From a virus: a DNA stretch of 60,818 nt. The stretch's first letter is position 1; each line of letters opens with the position of its first letter. The position numbers and the translations under genes are program-made. Location of the stretch: the IMG/VR virus record IMGVR_UViG_3300033153_010441, positions 1-60,818 of that record; one strand, 5' to 3'. Below, in pieces: positions 23,335 through 60,818 of this stretch. Under the pieces are notes generated by a model. The model did not search any database and had not been told where the DNA came from. It was given only the letters and a program-made list of their open reading frames with translations.

Positions 23335-25722
23335 TTAATAACCACCCATGGAATCAGCCGGACCGTGATAACGTTGTTTCGGCACACGACGGCTCATTTT
23401 TTTAAAAACACGCCCCTCGGACAATTCCAAGGCGGCATACTGCAACGCATCATGAACATGACTAAAAATATTTTTGTCGGGAGTTTCCTTAAAACGATCA
23501 CCAACACGAGCAGATGTTAGAATTTTTCCATACCTGTATTCGCTGATAAAACCTTTGCGAAGAATCGTACAGTTTGAAGATAGTAAAAACCCTGGCTCTT
23601 TGCCGTTTAACTTATGGAGAAAGTAATTAACTGCTTCGCGCCGGGCCAAACCATTATTAGTCTTAGCAGTGCGTATTGGAAAACCGGCACGCTTAAGAAT
23701 ATCAAATGCACTTTTTTTGTCATTCTCACTTCTGGTTGTAGATGCCGGATCTACAATCAGCATGAAACGAAAGTTGGCATAATTGGTTTTAATCTTCGGC
23801 CATAAATAATTATGTGCGAAAGAATCGATTGATGTGTCTTCTGTGACAATCTCATCAATCACAACCAATTGACCAGTCGGTGTAAGTTGACAAAATGCAG
23901 CAGCCGGGGTCAAACCACAGTCCACGCCAATGATCAATGGCAACGCTGGCATGGGTTTAATTAAGTGCGGACTACAATGCAGGGTATCATTATAAGATGG
24001 AAAAACTGGTTTGCCTTGACGGGCCATCCCATAATTATTAAGGATGAAAACATTTACCCAATCCGCGTCAGCACCAGACACCATGTCCTGGTAGTATTCT
24101 TCACTTAAGTTTTCAATGTTATCCGCGTCCGGGTTTAGTTTGTACCAGTTACCATCATTATCACACACAAACCCCTCACGCTCATGACAGATGAGCAGTG
24201 CCGGGGGCTGAGAATAAAAACTGTGATTTGCTGGTTTATTTTCTTCAGCCAGTTTATAAAGCCAGTGTTCTGTATCAACGGAGTTGTAGTCACAGATAAT
24301 AAACGGGCTGACCGGCTGAATGTTCTGCTTCTTTTTTAGAGGGAAGCGATTAATACGCGACTTGAGCATCTGATGAACCTGCTGCGGCATTTCTGCAGCT
24401 TCGTTCATGTGCGCGCCGGTCAACTGAAATGATTGCAGCTTGTTTACTTCCTCTTCACGATCAAGGGCAATAAAGAATAGTTCCATGTGCATTTCAGTCC
24501 CATCAGCTAAGGGGAGACGTATCTCACCACGGATTGGAACATCGTAAACAATCTTAATTAAATTCTGGAACCATTCTTTCCATGATTTAACTACCGTGGT
24601 CTTAATCGCTGGGTAAGTTGACCGAAGGATTGCATAACGACTCTGTCGTATGTTATCAACAATTATAGGCTGCCTCATTGCATTCATAAATAGATGCATA
24701 ATACAGCCGGAGGTTTTGCCGGAATTACCAGTCACAAAGATTTTATTATTGTGACGAGCCACAAAATAACTGGTCGGAACAGTGAAGCAGTATTGAAAAC
24801 CATCAGTAGATGATACTGTTTCGCAAGAGCAATTATGGAACGTCGTAGAGTCGCCTGTAAGAAGGGTGACGGATACTACGTATGAATGTTCAACATGCGA
24901 AATAGTAGCATGATGGCCCAGCGTATGCGCCACAAACTGGATAAAATCAGCATCCCGCTTATGCGGGGAGTGATACCTCAGATAATTATCACCCCAATAT
25001 TTTAACTCATCAAAAATAATTTGCGCCTGAGCCTGGGTGATGGTCCACCAAACAGGGCCGTACTGTTTGGATCGAAGCGGCGCTTGAAAAGTAATAACAT
25101 GCTCGCCATGCTGGTTTGTGTGCGCTTCCCAGGAACGCTCAGCCAAAGTCAATAAGTGTTTGACCCGCTCAAGCTTGTATGAATAACGAAAACGCATCAC
25201 ACAAGAATTAGTGCTTGCCTCTGTGAAAAGACCCTCAGCATGCACAGCTACCATCAGCCGCAGATCCGGCTCAGACAAATTTATTCCAGGCTGATTAATA
25301 GACAGCTTGATTGTAGTTGGAATACGATACTTCAGGCCCTCTGTCCCTTGCGCTATTTTGTCTGCAATATGTTGAGCGGAACACTCATGAAAAACACCAC
25401 GCCAATCGTAATATGGTACTCTATGGTCAGGTGACAAAACCATATCAACCGTATTGGCATTGTAAATATGAAAAAGAGGTTGCTCCGCTGGAACCTTGAT
25501 GTACGCCTGTGGTTTGACAAAATTGATGTGTTGAATTTCGGGGTGCCATTGCGCCACCAGATCACGCTTGGCGTCATACTCAGAAATTTTCTTCCAGCCG
25601 CCAGGAGTTAAAAACTCACTTTCAGGTGGCAGGCACCCAACCGGGCCTTTTACGAATATATAACGATTTGGATCACGATGTACTCTTGCAAATGTGCTAT
25701 TTGCTATGTAGTCAAGTTGCAC
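23335..25722 (-). CDS. terL: Terminase large subunit precursor with in-frame intein, 795 aa
   Basis: ATP-driven DNA packaging motor and nuclease. The first 29 residues end in VKGPVG, a 304-residue intein follows (30-333), and the sequence resumes SGKTSG, so splicing restores the Walker A loop GPVGSGKT. The mature protein would be 491 residues, normal for the family. Later motifs are a Walker B-like GAHMNEAAE and the RNase H-like nuclease residues in IIGVDCG (D601 of the precursor), MLIVDPAS and HVHDALQY. Portal follows two bases later. Without splicing the ATPase should be dead, which makes packaging depend on the intein. Confidence 0.92.
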   Translation of the reverse strand: MQLDYIANSTFARVHRDPNRYIFVKGPVGCLPPESEFLTPGGWKKISEYDAKRDLVAQWHPEIQHINFVKPQAYIKVPAEQPLFHIYNANTVDMVLSPDHRVPYYDWRGVFHECSAQHIADKIAQGTEGLKYRIPTTIKLSINQPGINLSEPDLRLMVAVHAEGLFTEASTNSCVMRFRYSYKLERVKHLLTLAERSWEAHTNQHGEHVITFQAPLRSKQYGPVWWTITQAQAQIIFDELKYWGDNYLRYHSPHKRDADFIQFVAHTLGHHATISHVEHSYVVSVTLLTGDSTTFHNCSCETVSSTDGFQYCFTVPTSYFVARHNNKIFVTGNSGKTSGCIMHLFMNAMRQPIIVDNIRQSRYAILRSTYPAIKTTVVKSWKEWFQNLIKIVYDVPIRGEIRLPLADGTEMHMELFFIALDREEEVNKLQSFQLTGAHMNEAAEMPQQVHQMLKSRINRFPLKKKQNIQPVSPFIICDYNSVDTEHWLYKLAEENKPANHSFYSQPPALLICHEREGFVCDNDGNWYKLNPDADNIENLSEEYYQDMVSGADADWVNVFILNNYGMARQGKPVFPSYNDTLHCSPHLIKPMPALPLIIGVDCGLTPAAAFCQLTPTGQLVVIDEIVTEDTSIDSFAHNYLWPKIKTNYANFRFMLIVDPASTTRSENDKKSAFDILKRAGFPIRTAKTNNGLARREAVNYFLHKLNGKEPGFLLSSNCTILRKGFISEYRYGKILTSARVGDRFKETPDKNIFSHVHDALQYAALELSEGRVFKKMSRRVPKQRYHGPADSMGGY
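24724..25635 (-). mobile_element. Intein (304 aa) inside the terminase P-loop
   Basis: It begins with Cys (residue 30, codon 25633-25635) and ends KIFVTGN before Ser+1. Block A is CLPPESEFLTPGGW. Block B is VLSPDHRV, with Ser in place of the usual Thr. Blocks F/G are CFTVPTSYFVARHNNKIFVTGN, split here as CFTVPTSYFV and ARHNNKIFVTGN; the penultimate residue is Gly where His is usual. The middle ~150 residues are long enough for a homing endonuclease and contain LMVAVHAEG, alignable with LAGLIDADG position by position. A clear second copy is not seen, so the nuclease may be decayed. Confidence 0.88.
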
Positions 25723-30931: not shown

Positions 30932-31336
30932 TTATCGCTTACTTTTTAACCTCCTGTATTTTTCCTGCTCGTGAAATGAGAGGGAAAGACTCCGGCCCGG
31001 AATGGCCGGGGCTGGAACGTAAAAGCAAGATTGTGTATCCAGATCCACCAACACGAAGTAATCGATGGTTCCGGGAGCGTAGTGACACCCCCCACCCATC
31101 GACACCTTCTTGTGGCGTGTGTCTATTACCAACCGCCCCGTGGAGGGGGTCCTGCTGGCGGTTTTAATTTGCAGTCGTTTGAAACAACCCGGACTTATTT
31201 CAACCAAAAGGTCGGCGATGCTGGCTGCGCTGAGGGGAAGATAAATATTGTACCCCTGATTCAGCAGATCAAAAATAACAAGCGATTCGGAAAGGTCACC
31301 GCATTGGTGAGAATTACTTGGTCGCCGCACCACCAC
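30932..31336 (-). CDS. PD-(D/E)XK endonuclease-like protein (PDDEXK_5 type), 134 aa
   Basis: Motifs in order: an N-terminal GDLSESLVIFDLLNQGYNIYLP helix (given here in part as GDLSESLVIFDLLNQGY), ADLLVEI, then LQIKTA, and later GTIDYFVLVDL. This is the order of the group I intron-associated PD-(D/E)XK family, with the active site near D63 and Q/K at about 77-79. It may be a resolvase-like nuclease helping packaging or recombination. It overlaps the upstream gene by 23 bases. Confidence 0.65.
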   Translation of the reverse strand: MVVRRPSNSHQCGDLSESLVIFDLLNQGYNIYLPLSAASIADLLVEISPGCFKRLQIKTASRTPSTGRLVIDTRHKKVSMGGGCHYAPGTIDYFVLVDLDTQSCFYVPAPAIPGRSLSLSFHEQEKYRRLKSKR

Positions 31337-31583
31337 TACGGCGGCGGGCTTGTCTCTTAACCTGCACGACGGTCAAGAGATAATCCAACGAATCATACGA
31401 CAGGGCGTACTTCTCCCGCAAGGTCCGGGGGTCGGTGATCCTCCCCGCGACTACATCCTGGTAGAAGCGGGGCCAAATTTTTGCAAAGCGACTAAACTCA
31501 AAATCATCAATTTCATCCCAGGGGGATGAAGTTACCTGTGACGAAGGCCACAGGTCAAAATCGTCGTAAATGTCTGTAATCAC
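31314..31583 (-). CDS. First late gene, hypothetical, 89 aa
   Basis: Start GTG at 31581-31583 with GGAGG about 11 bases upstream, roughly 30 bases after the predicted transcription start. The N-terminus is acidic (DIYDDFDLW), the middle helical, the C-terminus basic (KRQARRRSGG). It could bind DNA and act in packaging, but I do not recognise a family. Confidence 0.55.
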   Translation of the reverse strand: MITDIYDDFDLWPSSQVTSSPWDEIDDFEFSRFAKIWPRFYQDVVAGRITDPRTLREKYALSYDSLDYLLTVVQVKRQARRRSGGAATK

Positions 31584-31619
31584 TCAACTCGTTCCTCCAA
31601 CAACTCTAATTTTACCCCA

Positions 31620-31648
31620 ATTATACCACGGTTCTGGTATTGTGTCAA
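31620..31648 (-). promoter_or_regulatory. Consensus sigma70 promoter for the late operon (leftward)
   Basis: Reading leftward: TTGACA (31648-31643), 17-bp spacer, TATAAT (31625-31620). Both hexamers match the consensus exactly. A T7A7 palindrome (31652-31665) ends three bases upstream of the -35 and could act as an UP element. A promoter this strong ahead of virion genes must be silenced in the lysogen, by an operator I cannot identify. Confidence 0.85.
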
Positions 31649-31665
31649 GCATTTTTTTAAAAAAA

Positions 31666-31703
31666 CCCACCCAGCATAGGTCCAGGTATTGATGCTGGGT
31701 GGG
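31666..31703. terminator. Bidirectional terminator-like hairpin upstream of the late promoter
   Basis: Arms 31666-31677 and 31692-31703 pair over 12 bp. In the leftward direction the stem is followed by T7, in the rightward direction by GGATGTTTTTT. A second small stem (31745-31752 with 31759-31766) lies nearby. It would block read-through into the late promoter from the control region. Confidence 0.65.
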
Positions 31704-31811
31704 GGATGTTTTTTGTAAAATCATGATGCTGGGAAGGCAAGAGCCAGCACACACCCAGGTGTGCTGATCTTGCTGTTCGCAGTTAATTATTTTTATTTTA
31801 CTGATGATAAT

Positions 31812-32156
31812 ACCTACACCCCTTTAAGGGGTGTAGGTTATTTTAAAAATGCTGGATATAGATTAATACCAATACCCCCCAAGGGGTATTGGTTAATTAT
31901 TATATTATATTATTTATTATTAATACCAATATCCCTTTAGAGGGATATTGGTTAATTAATTTTATTATATTATTAATTATTAATACTGGACATAGATTAA
32001 TTAATTATTACTCCACCACTTTGGGGTGGTGGAGTAAATTAATTTAATTAATATTAGTATACTATAATATTATTAATACCAATACCCCCCCTTAAAGGGG
32101 TATTGGTTAATTATTATATTATATTAATAATTAACCAACCCCTTAAAGGGGTTGGT
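31812..32156. repeat. Array of six perfect inverted repeats with AT-only spacers
   Basis: Units lie at 31812-31838, 31868-31893, 31925-31952, 32010-32035, 32078-32107 and 32134-32156. Each has 10-13 bp arms of the type ACCAAT(A)CCCC/GGGG(T)ATTGGT and a 1-8 base loop. Arm sequences differ between units yet pair perfectly within each, which points to selection on the structure. Spacers are almost pure A/T; the 20-base TTAATTATTATATTATATTA follows units 2 and 5, and a 16-base repeat recurs at 31852-31867 and 31986-32001 with one difference. The array lies between the two divergent promoters and outside both transcripts, so a DNA-level role (origin, cruciform or insulator) is favoured. Confidence 0.85.
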
Positions 32157-32775
32157 ATTAAATGATACTATTAATAATCTAATTAATAAGTAAAATAATT
32201 ATTTTTAACATAAGAATTATTATTAATAATAATTATCCCCCCCCCCTCCGGGGGGTTTATTTAATCGAGCGGCGGTATTCCCGCCCCTCGCCGCCGCGAC
32301 GCGGCTTTTAAAAATACAAAGCGTAACGCTTTGGTTCCAGAATTAAATTTTGTGACCCATACCACCATATAGGGTAGGGGGAGTTATTTTAAAAACCAAA
32401 GCATTAGAGCTTGATTCTGGACATTAATGACGGTAGGAAGTTGTGTGTGCGGGGTACCCTATGTAGTTTTGGCTGGGTCCCTCCGCGATAAGGACCGTGG
32501 CACCCCGGCACCAAGCCCCCCCCAGGGGGTGGCGGTGCCTGAATACTTAAAGACACCCTGCCCTCCTCGCCAGCGAGCGAGGCTAAACGCCCACTTGATC
32601 CAGCAGGATACTTCAGTACAAAGATGCTACATTGTAGTATTATGTAGTGATACCAGAGTGTTAAGGATTAGATTAGTGTTGTGTTGGTTACAACAGGCTT
32701 ATCTATCCCACAAGTCTTGATCGTCACCTGGGCGTGAAGGTCCATCCAGCATCCTGTCTGCAACAAGATTAATGT
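32157..32775. other. Non-coding control region, GC-rich hairpins in AT-rich DNA
   Basis: No convincing gene. Visible structures: a C10/G6 stem at 32237-32256, a GCGGCG/CGCCGC pair near 32269-32296, a CAAAGCG-TAA-CGCTTTG hairpin near 32318-32334, a GGCACC/GGTGCC stem around a C8/G5 core near 32508-32540, and a CCTCGC/GCGAGG hairpin near 32565-32582. Sharp switches between AT-only and GC-only DNA suggest an origin or regulatory locus. A plus-strand frame at 32427-32720 looks like chance. Confidence 0.5.
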
Positions 32776-32843
32776 ATAGACAATGTTAATATAAAGTATC
32801 GATACTATCTATTCAATCTATAGATAATGTTGATATAAAGTAT
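32776..32843 (+). repeat. Two 24-bp iteron-like direct repeats
   Basis: Copies at 32776-32799 and 32820-32843 share ATAGA-YAATGTT-RATATAAAGTAT with two differences and a 44-bp period, about four helical turns. Between them is the palindrome AGTATCGATACT, and just after them GTATATAC occurs twice three bases apart. This resembles binding sites for an initiator or regulator. The protein is unknown. Confidence 0.55.
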
Positions 32844-33117
32844 ATACAATGTATATACATTGGAAACACCTACACCCCTCAAAATCAATCCCTACCTAAG
32901 TCTTTAGAATTATTTTAATTTCACATCAAATCTTCCCCAAGATATTTTGCTGATACAGTCTCACACAACATCCTTAATGATAATAATTACTTTTAACATT
33001 TTAGTGCATGCCACCTGCACTATGTGCTGGTACTGTGCTGGATAATTTTTTTCCTTTATTTTTTCGGAGACTTATTGATTTTTTTATGCTCAGGAGGGAT
33101 TTTTTTAAAAAAACCTC
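32844..33117. other. AT-rich non-coding stretch before the rightward promoter
   Basis: No gene with a credible start. It contains an AGTGCA/TGCACT stem near 33002-33020 and several T-runs (33040-33090). It ends in a T7A7 palindrome (33100-33113) identical to the one upstream of the late promoter. Confidence 0.45.
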
Positions 33118-33147
33118 TTGACATGGCTTAACCGGGCTTGCTATAAC
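33118..33147 (+). promoter_or_regulatory. Sigma70 promoter for the early region (rightward)
   Basis: TTGACA (33118-33123), 18-bp spacer, TATAAC (33142-33147). The T7A7 palindrome ends four bases upstream of the -35. Transcription would start near 33155 and run through the RadC-like gene into the small early genes. Confidence 0.75.
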
Positions 33148-33149
33148 AC

Positions 33150-33594
33150 GACCCAACGCTGGCGTTGTTCTTTGACAAACAGGTGGTAGTGCTGAACAGC
33201 CGACTGGAGCTGAACTGATCAAACCAGACACCCCAGACAAGCTGGGATGCTTGGGGCGACGATGGTCGGGGACATCTCATTGCGATTTGCTCCCTGGCGC
33301 AAGGGGAAGGTTGGCTCAGTAGGGACTACTATCTCATAGAAGAAAGGCGGGACGCCGCGCAAGCTTACGACCAGCAGATTACCTGGGACCGGACGGCGCG
33401 GCATCATCCTGCTCAAGTGTCATTGCTGCCATCAGCAATTGCTGGTGGTGCTGGTCGGTTTAAGCCTGGCGGTCAGTGCCGACGGAAAGCATGATGCGCC
33501 CTTTTGCTGTTGTTGCTTTGTCACAGGTCATCCCGATGAGGGTGACCTGGAGCAAACCAGCAACCTTTTAACCTCACTAAAAGGGGGTTATGAA
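33150..33594 (+). other. Long untranslated leader of the early transcript
   Basis: About 440 bases lie between the predicted start and the RadC-like ATG, without a convincing gene. Stems include CAACGC/GCGTTG near 33154-33167, an 8-bp stem closed by AATT near 33429-33452, and CAGGTCA/TGACCTG (33524-33530 with 33543-33549). It may hold a regulatory RNA or antitermination element. Confidence 0.4.
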
Positions 33595-34095
33595 ATGAGA
33601 AAAGACACACTCAAGAAAATGTTGGAAAGCGGTCAGCTCGCCTCAATGATAGCTGAGGCGGCAACAGGTGAACAGTTAGCTACTCCAGACGCGCTGTGGA
33701 ATTATCTCAAACCGTATTTCGCTGGTCAGGGTGATAATACGGTTGAACGGTTTGTTTGCGTTTTTCTTAACGCAAAAAATCGCGTTATTGCAATCGAAAC
33801 AGTGGCAACTGGTACAATTACGGGTGCCGCTGTATATCCTCGTGAGATTTTGAAACAGGCCTTTGCCATTGGCGCATCGGCTGTGATTTTTGCCCATAAT
33901 CACCCGTCAGGGGATACCAAACCTTCCATTGCTGACAGGGCACTTACGAAAAAACTTGTTTTTGCTTGCAAGTCTGTTGATATAACAGTTTTTGATCATA
34001 TGATCCTCGGCGGAAACAAGTATTTTTCTTTTGCAAACGATGGATTGATAGCACATTTTAACACCGCCTTTAATTCCTTCATGGAGGGGGACTAA
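33595..34095 (+). CDS. RadC-like JAB/MPN domain protein, 166 aa
   Basis: I use the ATG at 33595, preceded by a G5 tract, in place of a longer frame from 33439 whose N-terminus is implausible. The JAMM motif is complete: E68, then H101-x-H103-P-S-G and D114. RadC-like proteins are common in mobile elements and were once tied to repair; the true substrate is unknown. As the first early gene it may counter host defence, which is an inference. Confidence 0.8.
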   Translation: MRKDTLKKMLESGQLASMIAEAATGEQLATPDALWNYLKPYFAGQGDNTVERFVCVFLNAKNRVIAIETVATGTITGAAVYPREILKQAFAIGASAVIFAHNHPSGDTKPSIADRALTKKLVFACKSVDITVFDHMILGGNKYFSFANDGLIAHFNTAFNSFMEGD

Positions 34096-39547: not shown

Positions 39548-39913
39548 ATGAAGGAAGATGTAAAGAAACTGGCGTGGCTGGCCAGCTTCGTTGGGCTGGC
39601 TCGGCAGGAATTGGGTGACATCAGTCTCAGTCAGCTTGCAGTGCTGCTGAAAATCATGAGTAATGAAGGTATCACTCAACCTGAGCTAATGGATCAATTT
39701 AACATCCACCAAGGATCACTCAGCCGGATCGTCGGAAAACTGGGTTACTACATGGCCCGGCGGTCCGATGGTGGGTTTGACCGCCGGGGCCGGGGGTTGG
39801 TTGAAAACCGAATGGACACCCGTATTGACACCCGGCGCAATGCGGTCTTTCTGACCGAGAAGGGCAAGCAACTTAGGGATCTATTCTTTTCAACCTTTAA
39901 ACAATTAGAATAG
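39548..39913 (+). CDS. MarR-like winged-helix regulator, 121 aa
   Basis: The helix-turn-helix lies at about 38-65 (GITQPELMDQFNIHQGSLSR) and the wing at about 80-105 (RGRGLVENRMDTR), ending in a LTEKGKQL helix typical of MarR proteins. Slightly short for the family (usually ~140). As the only clear DNA-binding regulator in the phage, with its own operator-like promoter, it may control the lysis-lysogeny choice or early-to-middle switching. No CI/Cro-type repressor was found. Confidence 0.75.
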   Translation: MKEDVKKLAWLASFVGLARQELGDISLSQLAVLLKIMSNEGITQPELMDQFNIHQGSLSRIVGKLGYYMARRSDGGFDRRGRGLVENRMDTRIDTRRNAVFLTEKGKQLRDLFFSTFKQLE

Positions 39914-48075: not shown

Positions 48076-48326
48076 AGCAGGGTGATGTTGTTCGTATTGT
48101 AGATGTTGATCCATCAGATGGGTATTATTTCCTCGCAGATGTATTGATTGGAATGAAGGCAAAAATTACATTGCTGCCTGATGCATACCATCTTAAAGGT
48201 AAACCAGATTATCGTGTAATGCGATTAAAACTTCTTGAAACAAAAAGTTTTGATAAATGGAAACTTCCCTACAGGTTGTCTTTATTATTTGTGAGCGTTA
48301 AAGTGGAGAAAATTAATAATGAATAA
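48057..48326 (+). CDS. Hypothetical protein, 89 aa
   Basis: Starts 19 bases inside the end of the polymerase gene. Beta-rich N-terminus (GDVVRIVDVDP) like a small SH3-type domain, as in proteins that bind polymerase or DNA. No family named. Overlaps the next gene by eight bases. Confidence 0.5.
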   Translation: MEDGGLKQGDVVRIVDVDPSDGYYFLADVLIGMKAKITLLPDAYHLKGKPDYRVMRLKLLETKSFDKWKLPYRLSLLFVSVKVEKINNE

Positions 48327-49263
48327 GATGATAATTAAAATGATCTTTGGGTCCCACCTCTACGGTACAAATACACCAGATTCAGATTGGGATTATAAGG
48401 GAATTTTCATGCCTTCCAGGCGGGATATTTACTTGGGTCGTATTCCCAAGAGTATCAGGCGCGACACCAAAAAGGGTAACACCTCGCGCAATACCAGTAA
48501 TGATGTGGATGAGGAAATTTATTCGCTCCATTATTTCATCAAGCTGGCGTGCGAGGGACAGACGGTTGCAATTGACATGCTTCATGCACCACCGAGTATG
48601 ATATGGGAACATCATCCTCTATGGAAAGAATTAGTAACTAACCGTAGTAGATTTTATACACGCAACCTAAAGGCATTTGTAGGGTATGCTCGGAAGCAGG
48701 CAGCTAAGTATGGTATTCGTGGGAGTCGCCTTCACGCCATTGGACAAGTCATTTCCTTTTTAAAGAAATGCCCTGAAAATTGTCGGTTGGCAGATGTATG
48801 GGATGATCTTCCTACTGGTGAGCATATTCACTTTCTACCACCGGATTCAAAAACAGAACAGCCTCTATATCAAGTTTGCGGCAAGAAATTTATGGTTCGC
48901 ACGCATATTCGTAATGTGCTTGAATCTTTGCAGCGAAGCTATGATGCATATGGTCACCGTGCCCAACAGGCAAAAGAGAATAAAGGTATTGATTGGAAAG
49001 CAGTGAGCCATGCCATTCGTGCTGCTATTCAGATGCAAGAAATTTATACGAAGGGTAATATCTATTTCCCATTGGCACAGGCAGATCTTTTGCGTCGGAT
49101 TAAGGCTGGAAAGATGGATTATACAACATACGTAGCACCCCTGCTGGAAAACCTCATCGATAATGTTGAACAGTTGGCAAAACAAAGTAATTTGCCAGAC
49201 AAGGTTGACCGGAAATGGTGGGATGAATGGCTGATCAGTGCAATAGAAAGGTATGCGGAGTAA
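48319..49263 (+). CDS. Nucleotidyltransferase (RlaP/DUF-type, PolB-like), 314 aa
   Basis: The N-terminal GSHLYGTNTPDSDWDYKG holds the nucleotidyltransferase signature G-S plus D23-x-D25 for metal binding. The rest is helical, as in RlaP-type predicted nucleotidyltransferases common in phages. It may add nucleotides to RNA or modify a nucleotide or protein. The next gene, an HD protein, could act in the same pathway. Confidence 0.75.
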   Translation: MNKMIIKMIFGSHLYGTNTPDSDWDYKGIFMPSRRDIYLGRIPKSIRRDTKKGNTSRNTSNDVDEEIYSLHYFIKLACEGQTVAIDMLHAPPSMIWEHHPLWKELVTNRSRFYTRNLKAFVGYARKQAAKYGIRGSRLHAIGQVISFLKKCPENCRLADVWDDLPTGEHIHFLPPDSKTEQPLYQVCGKKFMVRTHIRNVLESLQRSYDAYGHRAQQAKENKGIDWKAVSHAIRAAIQMQEIYTKGNIYFPLAQADLLRRIKAGKMDYTTYVAPLLENLIDNVEQLAKQSNLPDKVDRKWWDEWLISAIERYAE

Positions 49264-51537: not shown

Positions 51538-52405
51538 TGCCATTCGGGTTTGGATGGGACACTACAGCAACATGGGGGCAGATTATAGCGTCACTGATCT
51601 GATTAACACCCCACGAATCGTTCAACTTCGTAAGCGTTACGTTGATGTTCTTCCACCTGAAGAGCCAGAGGATCTTGTCAAACCCTTTCTTGGAACAGCA
51701 ATTCATAACCTATTTGAAAAAACACTACGTCAGTATGAACAGCGCCACCCTGGGAGTTACTTGGTTGAGTATCGATGTTGGGACCGAATTTTAAATCGGA
51801 AGATTAGCGGACAATTTGACTTATATGATTTGCGAAGTAACACTCTTTACGACTTTAAAACCACGTCTGTATGGAAACTAATCTTTGGCTCCACCAAAGA
51901 GTGGGAACAACAACTCAATCTGTACGGCTGGTTCCTCCGCCAGATGGGACTGGATGTACGCCGGGTGCGTGTTATTTCAATCCTGCTGGATTGGGACCGG
52001 CAGCGGATGTTCCGTGAGAAGGATTACCCCAGGGACCAAATTCGTTTTGTCAACATCCCGCTATGGTCCTTGGACAAACAGGAAAAATTTTTGTTGGAAC
52101 GAATCACCTTAATGAAAACATGTGAAGAGTTGGATGACGACCATCTTCCTGAATGCACCGACGAAGAAATGTGGGCTTCACCCACTACCTGGGCGGTGGA
52201 ACCGGATGGTGGTGGTCGGGCCAAACGTGTGCTGAATACTTACGAAGAAGCAAAAGAATGGCTCACTAAGAAAAAATTCAAGAACCATAGTGTGGTCAAA
52301 CGACCTGGAACACGGACACGTTGTGAAAAATATTGTCCAGTACAAAGCGTATGTAGCCAATACATTACTTACCAAGCGAAATTATCCGAAGAAAGTGCCT
52401 GTTAA
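51512..52405 (+). CDS. Cas4/RecB-like PD-(D/E)XK exonuclease with cysteine cluster, 297 aa
   Basis: Motifs: H65-like GTAIHNLFEK helix, then GQFDLYD and YDFKTTS, which form the PD-(D/E)XK site, and a C-terminal CEKYCPVQSVC as in Fe-S-bound RecB/Cas4 nucleases; a partner N-terminal cysteine is not evident. ATG at 51512 has AGAGGGGG upstream. It probably resects DNA for recombination or degrades host DNA. Confidence 0.75.
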   Translation: MKLPRPVSDAIRVWMGHYSNMGADYSVTDLINTPRIVQLRKRYVDVLPPEEPEDLVKPFLGTAIHNLFEKTLRQYEQRHPGSYLVEYRCWDRILNRKISGQFDLYDLRSNTLYDFKTTSVWKLIFGSTKEWEQQLNLYGWFLRQMGLDVRRVRVISILLDWDRQRMFREKDYPRDQIRFVNIPLWSLDKQEKFLLERITLMKTCEELDDDHLPECTDEEMWASPTTWAVEPDGGGRAKRVLNTYEEAKEWLTKKKFKNHSVVKRPGTRTRCEKYCPVQSVCSQYITYQAKLSEESAC

Positions 52406-52928
52406 AAGAAAACACCCAAAGTGTTGGGTGTGTGGTAAAACATTTCGAAAACAAATTACTCAAGATCAGTTTGTTTGCAGCTACCAATGTCTCCTGGATT
52501 ATTGGAACCAGTTGCCGGGCAGACGAGGAAAAGCGAAGGCCCGGCAGCTTGCCAGCACCATGGGTTTACGATCATTAGGTGAAGTAAAGTTAGCTGCACG
52601 GCTGGCAGCGGCCAAGGTAAAGTTTCGGTACGAGTCAGCCAAACTGACATATACCCCACCACAGCGCAAATATATTGCTGACTTTGAGGTAAAAACCAAA
52701 TCAGGAAAAACAATCTATCTGGAATACAAAGGGATTTTTAAGGGAACTGATCGCACTAAAATGCTTCTTGTCCGTAAAGAAAATCCCGATGTGGATATTC
52801 GTTTTATTTTTGAAAAGCCCCAAAACAAATTGAGCCGTGTGTCAAAAACAACTTATGCACAATGGTGTGAAAAGCACGGTTTTCTTTGGGCTGAAAAGGA
52901 ACCACCAATAGCATGGTTGGAGGAATAA
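52395..52928 (+). CDS. Endonuclease I-like Holliday junction resolvase, about 177 aa
   Basis: The region GLRSLGEVKLAARLAAAKVK through IADFEVKTKSGKTIYLEYKG carries the endonuclease I active site pattern (E in SLGE, D in ADFE, E-x-K in LEYKG), followed by TKMLLVRKENPDVDIRFIF, seen here as two parts. It resolves branched DNA before packaging. The N-terminus has two CxxC-like pairs (CWVC and CSYQC), an addition relative to T7. Start GTG 52395 is uncertain; the frame is open from 52290. Confidence 0.75.
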   Translation: MPVKRKHPKCWVCGKTFRKQITQDQFVCSYQCLLDYWNQLPGRRGKAKARQLASTMGLRSLGEVKLAARLAAAKVKFRYESAKLTYTPPQRKYIADFEVKTKSGKTIYLEYKGIFKGTDRTKMLLVRKENPDVDIRFIFEKPQNKLSRVSKTTYAQWCEKHGFLWAEKEPPIAWLEE

Positions 52929-58924: not shown

Positions 58925-60109
58925 TCACTTCGCCTTGCGGCGGGTGTTAAGATCAATTACTGGGGTTGGCTCCATGTGCTGGCTGAAGTACCGATCCACC
59001 CCAGTACGAAAATCAGCCTTGGCATTCAGGTCGAGATGCGTGTAACCCTCCGTTGTAATCAAGTTGGCGTGTGACATGAGCTGCTGGACCTGCCGTAAAT
59101 TCCCTCCTAACGCTCTTTCAGCGTGTGTGCTGAAAGTGTGTCGCAATGTGTGGAATACCACCCGATTTTTCGTGTCACGGGCCGCTACGCCGTTGTTCAG
59201 TCCCGTTATTTCAATAGCACGGGCGATGTGATAACGCTCAAACTTTTTGAAGATCCGCCCCTTTTCCTTCCGGCCCAGGGCCAGCAGCGGTTCCCGGACC
59301 ATGCTGGATATGGGCAGGGTATCCACCTTCCCGCCCTTACGAACGAAGGTCATGGTCCCCCGTTCCCAATTAATGTTCTCCCAGCAGAGGTTCTTCACCT
59401 CGAATTTCCGCATTCCCATGAACAAACCCAGGCACACCTGAACATACGCATCCTGGTTGATCTGCTTGGTCGCGTCCAGAAGGCGGCGAATCTCGTCGAT
59501 AGAGAGGTACCTTTCCCGGACCACCTTGGTCTTGCGGAGCTTAACCAGCTTGGCGGGGTTGCCGCCCTGGTACTTGCCAGTATTCTGTGCAAACTCAAAC
59601 AACTGACGCACCAGGGTCAGAGCATGCGCCACACTTCCTGGTGCCATCCCCTTTTTCTCTTTCATGTCCGCGACCATCTTCTGGACGTGGACCTGGGTGA
59701 TAGCAGCCAGTGAAAGCCCTCCAAGGACTGGTTCAATATGTTTCTTCCAGGTGCTGATCTTGGTGTCCACGGTGTGCTGCCGGTAGTCCTGGGCCTTCAA
59801 GTAACCCAGGTACTCCTTCCAAATGTCGCCCAGGGTGCGGGGGGTCAGCGCCTCTGCTGCATCAATCCCCCGCCGCTCCAGCATGATCCGCTCGTTGCGG
59901 ATGTCCCGCGCCTTCTCGGCGTTCATGCCTTCCTCATTCGTCCCGCAAGTAAAGACCACCAACCGCCCTGCGCGGTTGACGTACCGGATACGGTACACGA
60001 TCAGCTCGCGGGTCTTGCCGTTCTTAATCCAGCTTCCCTTCAGGCGACGGGCATACACGCCGGTGTACCCCTTCAGCTTTTTCTCTTCCCCCACTTTCAT
60101 GCTTGCCAT
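58925..60109 (-). CDS. int: Tyrosine recombinase (phage integrase), 394 aa
   Basis: Catalyses integration and excision at the 11-bp core. Catalytic set: R234 (GMRKFE), Lys near 257 (KGGK), H320-x2-R323 (FHTLRH), H347 (SHANL) and Y356 (TTEGYTHL). The N-terminal arm-binding and SAM-like domains fill the first ~190 residues. Start ATG 60109 has GGAGG six bases upstream. The gene is richer in G+C than most of the phage and closer to the host flank. No excisionase gene is seen next to it. Confidence 0.93.
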   Translation of the reverse strand: MASMKVGEEKKLKGYTGVYARRLKGSWIKNGKTRELIVYRIRYVNRAGRLVVFTCGTNEEGMNAEKARDIRNERIMLERRGIDAAEALTPRTLGDIWKEYLGYLKAQDYRQHTVDTKISTWKKHIEPVLGGLSLAAITQVHVQKMVADMKEKKGMAPGSVAHALTLVRQLFEFAQNTGKYQGGNPAKLVKLRKTKVVRERYLSIDEIRRLLDATKQINQDAYVQVCLGLFMGMRKFEVKNLCWENINWERGTMTFVRKGGKVDTLPISSMVREPLLALGRKEKGRIFKKFERYHIARAIEITGLNNGVAARDTKNRVVFHTLRHTFSTHAERALGGNLRQVQQLMSHANLITTEGYTHLDLNAKADFRTGVDRYFSQHMEPTPVIDLNTRRKAK

Positions 60110-60307
60110 AAGTGCCTCCTTTTACTATAAATTACTTATGATGTTTACAACAGAGCAATTTTCCCCATTTTCCGGTAATCTGTGGGTAAACCAAACCTCC
60201 ATTTCAAGGCACTATAACAGTTATGAAAAATGCTGTCAAGCATTTTTAAAAAGTGGGAACGGCTCTTGCTATTTGTGTGTTTTCCCAGTATTTCAGGTGA
60301 CATATGT

Positions 60308-60363
60308 TAAATCTAAGGAACCTCTCCACCAAAGATAAATCTAAGGAACCTCTCCACCAAAGA
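60308..60363. repeat. Perfect 28-bp tandem duplication at attR
   Basis: 60308-60335 and 60336-60363 are identical and each ends with the 11-bp att core. The second copy joins the host gene. As 28 is not a multiple of three, the copies read in different frames. Confidence 0.9.
60353..60363. other. attR core (11 bp)
   Basis: TCCACCAAAGA, the same as 314-324, followed in frame by the rest of the host regulator. An identical core 28 bp upstream (60325-60335) is an alternative exchange point. Confidence 0.75.
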
Positions 60364-60818
60364 GGCGGCCCAGTTCCTGGGCGTCAATGAGAAGATGGTC
60401 TACACCCTGGTGTCCGAAAAGGGGCTGCCGGCTACCAAGATCACCGGCAAGTGGCTCTTTCCCATTCACCTGCTCGAGCAGTGGGTGGAGACCCATACCA
60501 TCAACTATCCTGAGGCCCGGGGCAAGCTGCCGCCCTACGAGGGACTGCTGGTCATCGCCGGCAGCAACGACCTGCTGCTCGACAAGGCCATCCAGTTGTT
60601 CAACACCCGCTACCGGGAACACTTGGCCGTGTTCGGCAACCTCGGCAGCATGGGCGGTCTGCGGGCCCTGCGCCAGGGCCTCTGCCACGTGGCTTCCAGC
60701 CACCTGCTGCAGGAAAACGGTGAGGAGTACAACTTCGAGTTCGCCCACCAGGAGTTCGATCGGGTGCCGGTGGTGGTCAATTTCTGCCGCCGTGAGCAGG
60801 GGCTGATGCTCGCCAAGG
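60353..60818 (+). pseudogene. Body of the interrupted host HTH/PBP-like regulator (partial)
   Basis: From the core the frame reads STKEAAQFLGVNEKMVYTLV, an excisionase-type HTH, followed from about residue 65 by a PBP-like domain (LLVIAGSNDLLLDKAIQLFN and so on), as in regulators sensing oxyanions such as molybdate or tungstate. In the lysogen two in-frame stops lie upstream and no ATG occurs before 60395, inside the HTH. The gene runs off the window. The ligand is a guess from the architecture. Confidence 0.75.

Follow-up and report, generated by a model that had tools for sequence, protein, structure and literature searches.

The closest tested system to the locus described here is the replication origin of the lactococcal Ceduovirus phages (c2/bIL67/923-type), which occupies the non-coding gap that separates divergent early and late modules, is defined by the early-module promoters PE1/PE2 and was tested by cloning, with the cloned ori fragments replicating (PMC7150918). 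The origin gives rise to a non-coding transcript, and the sequence and/or structure of this RNA is considered important; between phage types the origin differs in sequence while its position and function stay (PMC7150918). The locus studied here, from an unrelated phage and host, shares with the Ceduovirus origin a non-coding gap between divergent modules that holds repeats and palindromes in AT-rich, easily unwound DNA, whereas an arm-variable hairpin array in AT-only DNA is not described in the sections of the source that we could consult (PMC7150918). Perfect palindromes associated with two divergent transcription units, with loops in both orientations, are also found in the LIMPs of Lobosphaera incisa mitochondria, for which cruciform origins have been speculated upon; LIMPs are, however, dispersed, with AACCA pentanucleotide-repeat arms and an invariant loop (PMC4524435), whereas arms and loops vary in the local array described here. 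Yeast mitochondrial GC clusters (PMC4478555), among which GC42 shows stronger constraint on its stem than on its loops (PMC4478555), and sponge repetitive hairpin-forming elements (PMC2800124) resemble the array as GC-containing or perfect hairpins in A+T-rich intergenic DNA, but they are dispersed and mobile, whereas the present units occur in the array only, at one locus.

The window, by which we mean the whole stretch of DNA analysed, is the 60,818-base virus contig IMGVR_UViG_3300033153_010441. Its first 324 positions (1 to 324) match a locus of the Desulfobacteraceae MAG HyVt-13 (DQXI01000109) at 99%, and positions 60352 to 60818 match the same locus at 100%; the locus is uninterrupted in HyVt-13 (an empty site), and the two matches overlap by 11 bases, TCCACCAAAGA, which form the attachment core. 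Matches of both ends to one uninterrupted locus, together with an integrase gene near the right prophage end (58925 to 60109), indicate an integrated, apparently whole prophage of ~60 kb, and the same matches give the identity of the host. The record is a podovirus-like prophage integrated in a member of the Desulfobacteraceae, a sulphate-reducing bacterium. The host gene split by the insertion at the right end resembles a helix-turn-helix regulator (named from its own sequence, with no family search), and a direct repeat of ~27 bases, AAATCTAAGGAACCTCTCCACCAAAGA, is present twice at the right attachment site (60304 to 60362).

A leftward block starting at 31583 carries the structural genes (TerL, portal and capsid), while a rightward block starting at ~33592 encodes RadC, primase, a DnaB-like helicase, DNA polymerase A, endonuclease I and ribonucleotide reductase. 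The portal is ~33% identical to that of Pseudomonas phage Rollin and 28 to 32% identical to those of HMO-2011-like phages, and TerL shows 30 to 36% identity to phages such as Y3 and BcepC6B. To our knowledge, the origins of HMO-2011-like and related podoviruses have not been mapped. As separate observations, TerL (23335 to 25722) contains an intein-like insertion of ~300 residues, which interrupts the Walker A motif (GPVG-C...N-SGKT), and the rightward module includes an RlaP-type nucleotidyltransferase, of an RNA repair family (48319 to 49263).

The array lies between the two blocks, within a non-coding, ORF-poor gap of ~1.5 kb with the following features (strand given where one applies):

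31620 to 31648, minus strand: predicted consensus sigma-70 promoter of the leftward structural module (TTGACA-17-TATAAT, 12/12 matches)
31657 to 31703, minus strand: intrinsic-terminator-like hairpin (12-bp stem, 14-nt loop, then U7; −22.4 kcal/mol, z −4.1)
31744 to 31766: extra 8-bp hairpin outside the family, CAGCACAC..GTGTGCTG
31812 to 31838: hairpin unit 1, ACCTACACCCCTT-T-AAGGGGTGTAGGT
31837 to 32236: 400-bp stretch with the lowest duplex stability in the record (5.2 SD)
31850 to 31867, plus strand: spacer motif copy 1, TGCTGGATATAGATTAAT
31868 to 31893: hairpin unit 2, ACCAATACCCC-CCAA-GGGGTATTGGT
31894 to 31924: AT-only spacer, 31 nt
31925 to 31952: hairpin unit 3, ACCAATATCCCT-TTAG-AGGGATATTGGT
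31984 to 32001, plus strand: spacer motif copy 2, TACTGGACATAGATTAAT
32008 to 32037: hairpin unit 4, deviant arms, TTACTCCACCAC-TTTGGG-GTGGTGGAGTAA (model E 0.0009)
32078 to 32107: hairpin unit 5, ACCAATACCCC-CCCTTAAA-GGGGTATTGGT
32108 to 32133: AT-only spacer, 26 nt
32134 to 32156: hairpin unit 6, in inverted orientation compared with the other units, ACCAACCCCTT-A-AAGGGGTTGGT (42.6 bits on the minus strand versus 24.7 on the plus strand)
32224 to 32264: weak unit 7, a C-run/G6 hairpin in AT-rich context (model E 0.008, modest)
32771 to 32858, plus strand: iteron-like direct repeats, two copies of 44 nt in tandem (77% alike), sharing the non-coding gap with the array
33118 to 33147, plus strand: promoter-like element of the rightward replication module (TTGACA-18-TATAAC, read from sequence)

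An earlier sequence-only reading had described six perfect inverted repeats at 31812 to 32156, and these are borne out: all 70 stem pairs are Watson-Crick, with no mismatch and no G-U pair, in stems of 13, 11, 12, 12, 11 and 11 bp (units 1 to 6) with loops of 1 to 8 nt. This is far beyond chance, since 1000 dinucleotide shuffles of the region yield a mean of 0.004 inverted repeats and a maximum of 1. Seven comparable palindromes occur in the remaining 60.4 kb of the record, and the array is the densest palindrome cluster per 400 bp among the 2.3 Mb of sequence compared. The fold z score of the region is −11 to −12 (about −12 on both strands). The array is known from one metagenomic sequence, in which an assembly error may be present.

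With respect to the design said to be common to the units, ACC..GGT ends are found in five of the six, unit 4 being the exception (TTACT..AGTAA), and units 2, 3, 5 and 6 read TTAAT-ACC...GGT-TAATTA in one orientation. A covariance model trained only on units 1, 2, 3 and 5 recovers units 4 and 6 as well as the weak seventh, with no further match in the record. The spacers, which had been called AT-only, are so in two of five internal cases; the others contain 2 to 5 G/C, giving a range of ~80 to 100% A+T, and two internal spacers have the motif TRCTGGAYATAGATTAAT in common. The placement of the array between divergent promoters holds in that candidates are found on both sides, separated by ~1.5 kb, the promoters being known by consensus match only; the first leftward gene (31583, minus strand) lies downstream of the predicted left promoter and has an RBS-like GGAGG.

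Nowhere in the record is the duplex weaker than where the array lies. Six of the record's eight AT-only runs of at least 18 nt fall within 31837 to 32236 and a seventh lies just to the left, so that 31783 to 32236 holds seven of the eight. Furthermore, all 36 GC pairs carry their C on the 5' arm, which makes the design identical on either strand. The lack of G-U pairs, this strand symmetry and the coincidence with the weakest duplex together favor a role as DNA, in agreement with the sequence-only reading. The GC skew also flips sign at the array, although this is not independent evidence of an origin because the coding strand switches at the same place, and no DnaA boxes were found in the region.

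Distant relatives carry palindromes at the same junction. In Rollin, the palindrome GGTAGnAAnTTnCTACC, given over 25 bp as AAAAGGTAGnAAnTTnCTACCTTTT, occurs five times, confined to the non-coding divergent junction (L053:1-500, L061:11767), with the record ends overlapping within one copy. All four copies of TGTGATCACA in the record of Roseobacter phage CRP-603 lie within 120 bp of its junction, likewise non-coding (L058:49105-49223). HMO-2011 has a short junction with weak repeats, where two of its three copies of CACTTAAGTG are located. Rollin and CRP-603 are thus like the present prophage in having several palindromes at the same genome position and nowhere else, but their arms are conserved in sequence, consistent with protein sites, and AT-only spacers are lacking. 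Since the palindrome sequence is kept in these phages and varied here, the position is shared while the device differs.

We therefore regard the array, in line with the earlier claim that a structural array occupies the control region where the modules diverge, as a structural part of the non-coding control region of the prophage, and we tentatively put a replication origin first among its possible functions, which is also the best-fitting of the roles proposed earlier. Several observations lead to this reading: the array separates the leftward structural block from the rightward primase/helicase/polymerase A block, hairpins far in excess of chance sit in the weakest duplex of the record, the junction palindromes of distant relatives occur only there, the Ceduovirus origin provides a precedent, and the missing G-U pairs and strand symmetry favor action as DNA. 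Negative supercoiling between divergent promoters could drive hairpin extrusion from an AT-rich tract. The AT-only tracts would act as a duplex-unwinding element, and the perfect GC-containing palindromes would fold once this element has opened or become negatively supercoiled between the divergent promoters. The folded hairpins could then keep the strands apart and/or flag them for the phage primase-helicase, perhaps with the help of a structured transcript spanning the array, as in the lactococcal Ceduovirus origins. Extrusion, origin activity and the recognition of structure rather than sequence are steps that we infer. Counting against the origin reading are the short junction of HMO-2011 with its weak repeats, the possibility that the perfection of the arms is mutational, and the fact that no initiator protein was recognized. 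The prophage also encodes a T7-like endonuclease I (52290 to 52928), known relatives of which cut four-way junctions; stable cruciforms would thus be risky in the lytic phase, which argues against permanent ones.

That the arms differ between units and still pair within each of them, as had been noted, is confirmed: among units 1, 2, 3 and 5, nine of nine pairwise differences are changed on both arms. Double changes affect 3 of 11 stem columns with 100% of the cells paired, a value reached in 9 of 500 shuffles. Unit 6 shows a clean loss of two base pairs, and the arms of unit 4, although entirely different, pair as well. Loops vary as well, with TTTAA and TTAAA showing that both orientations are present among the units. 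Because the units share flanks and spacers they are paralogous duplicates, and few independent events are therefore represented, namely at least three substitutions, one paired deletion and one replacement. Arm covariation was compared between these paralogous units only, since no homologous locus was found. The sequence-only reading took the compensatory changes as a mark of selection, a conclusion that lacks support: template switching creates and repairs perfect stems in one step by using one arm as the template for the other, and loops can be inverted by it as well (PMC8794818), so that arms can be perfected in its course without selection and covariation is no proof of a selected structure. 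The paired changes may reflect either selection on structure or template switching, both being compatible with the data, and the two are not separated because no orthologous locus was found.

This leads to the strongest competitor of the origin reading, in which one GC palindrome was duplicated locally and template switching during replication kept the arms perfect, leaving functionless or selfish repeats; we consider this possible, if on the unlikely side. The common flanks and spacers, the variable loops in both orientations and the one-event repair of stems (PMC8794818) are all as expected of such repeats, and elements of this kind are known from AT-rich intergenic DNA. The absence of copies from the other phages and hosts searched also favors it. 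IMG/VR searches with the portal, two genes to the left of the array, RadC and primase, in which exact eight-residue matches were required, returned no close relative; the upstream flank of one RadC match is without hairpins, and a TerL profile found at least 80 loci, none with a like array among the matches listed. Among viral contigs (IMG/VR), the exact pattern gave 0 matches and the design pattern 1, a single unrelated hairpin. Host-class genomes gave 1 hit in 389 by pattern, a different hairpin, and 0 in 192 by covariance model; host-class prophages with a 25 to 30% identical portal have no array, and the array DNA has no match in phage records, plasmid records or the three nearest host MAGs. 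A cluster in one TerL relative (L074:5485-5959), with seven GC-rich palindromes of differing arms of which at least two look like terminators, was considered as a relative of the array and rejected, as it is flanked by convergent genes and some of its hairpins are of the terminator type. Functionless repeats are, on the other hand, hard to reconcile with copies that are limited to one functional junction rather than dispersed in phage or host, with the recurrence of palindrome arrays at the same junction of distant relatives, and with six of six stems being perfect, where neutral repeats should leave more than a few decayed relics.

The region could alternatively act as a structured non-coding RNA, if a leftward or rightward phage transcript crossed the array and formed a string of hairpins with AU-rich linkers, serving perhaps as a protein sponge or as a replication primer. 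The earlier statement that the array is in no main transcript is unsafe in this respect, given the strong terminator-like hairpin with U7 that ends the region at 31657, leftward, between the array and the left promoter. Such a hairpin is expected if leftward RNA crosses the array and thus counts against an exclusive DNA role, and the fold z of −12 on both strands, as well as the use of such a transcript at the Ceduovirus origin (PMC7150918), points in the same direction. G-U pairs are nevertheless absent from all 70 pairs of a strand-symmetric design, no convincing driving promoter is seen (candidates for a transcript across the array have 9 to 10 of 12 matches, in AT-rich DNA), and Rfam matches are at chance level (best 31.5 bits versus a gathering cut-off of 90), making this explanation unlikely. 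Somewhat more doubtful still is the specific proposal that the array serves a double-stranded DNA phage as an origin or switch whose shape is what is read, with cruciforms driven out by supercoiling and recognized whatever the arm sequence.

We find it improbable that the units form a transcription insulator, in which successive hairpins with AU-rich tails would block stray transcription before it reached either module. A simple terminator scan does flag the units as terminator-like, with 16 sites in 31000 to 34000 versus 3.0 in shuffles, and the flanking hairpin (31657 to 31703) is a good intrinsic terminator candidate. The units themselves lack a U-run directly after the GC hairpin, except for TATTTT after unit 1, so that the earlier remark on missing U-tracts is correct for units 1 to 6 but not for the adjoining hairpin (31703 to 31657, minus strand), the one element here with the form of an intrinsic terminator. 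Moreover, the promoter of neither module fires through the array, and terminators do not need perfect, symmetric stems that vary in pairs.

That the units are operators or iterons bound by a dimeric protein, akin to the landing array suggested earlier, is very improbable. The ACC..CCCC/GGGG..GGT positions common to the palindromes, the conserved palindromes at the same junction of relatives and a MarR-like regulator encoded at 39548 to 39913 would suit it, but uncontacted positions should mutate uncompensated, while every difference here is paired and unit 4 has different arms. In place of a conserved, helically phased binding sequence, we observe unit centers 52 to 84 bp apart without helical phase (R = 0.13, P = 0.92), which, with the symmetric arm variation, makes a row of ordinary protein sites unlikely. 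A CRISPR reading was rejected by reasoning, since the repeats differ and the spacers are of low complexity.

Together with the same-position arrays of Rollin and CRP-603, the array points to the divergent junction as a candidate place for the origin in these phages. If the structure rather than the sequence is what is read, the locus would clearly exemplify the natural use of cruciforms by a double-stranded DNA phage. If the structure is not read, it would instead illustrate, in compact natural form, how template switching keeps palindromes perfect, and would warn against taking paired changes for selection.
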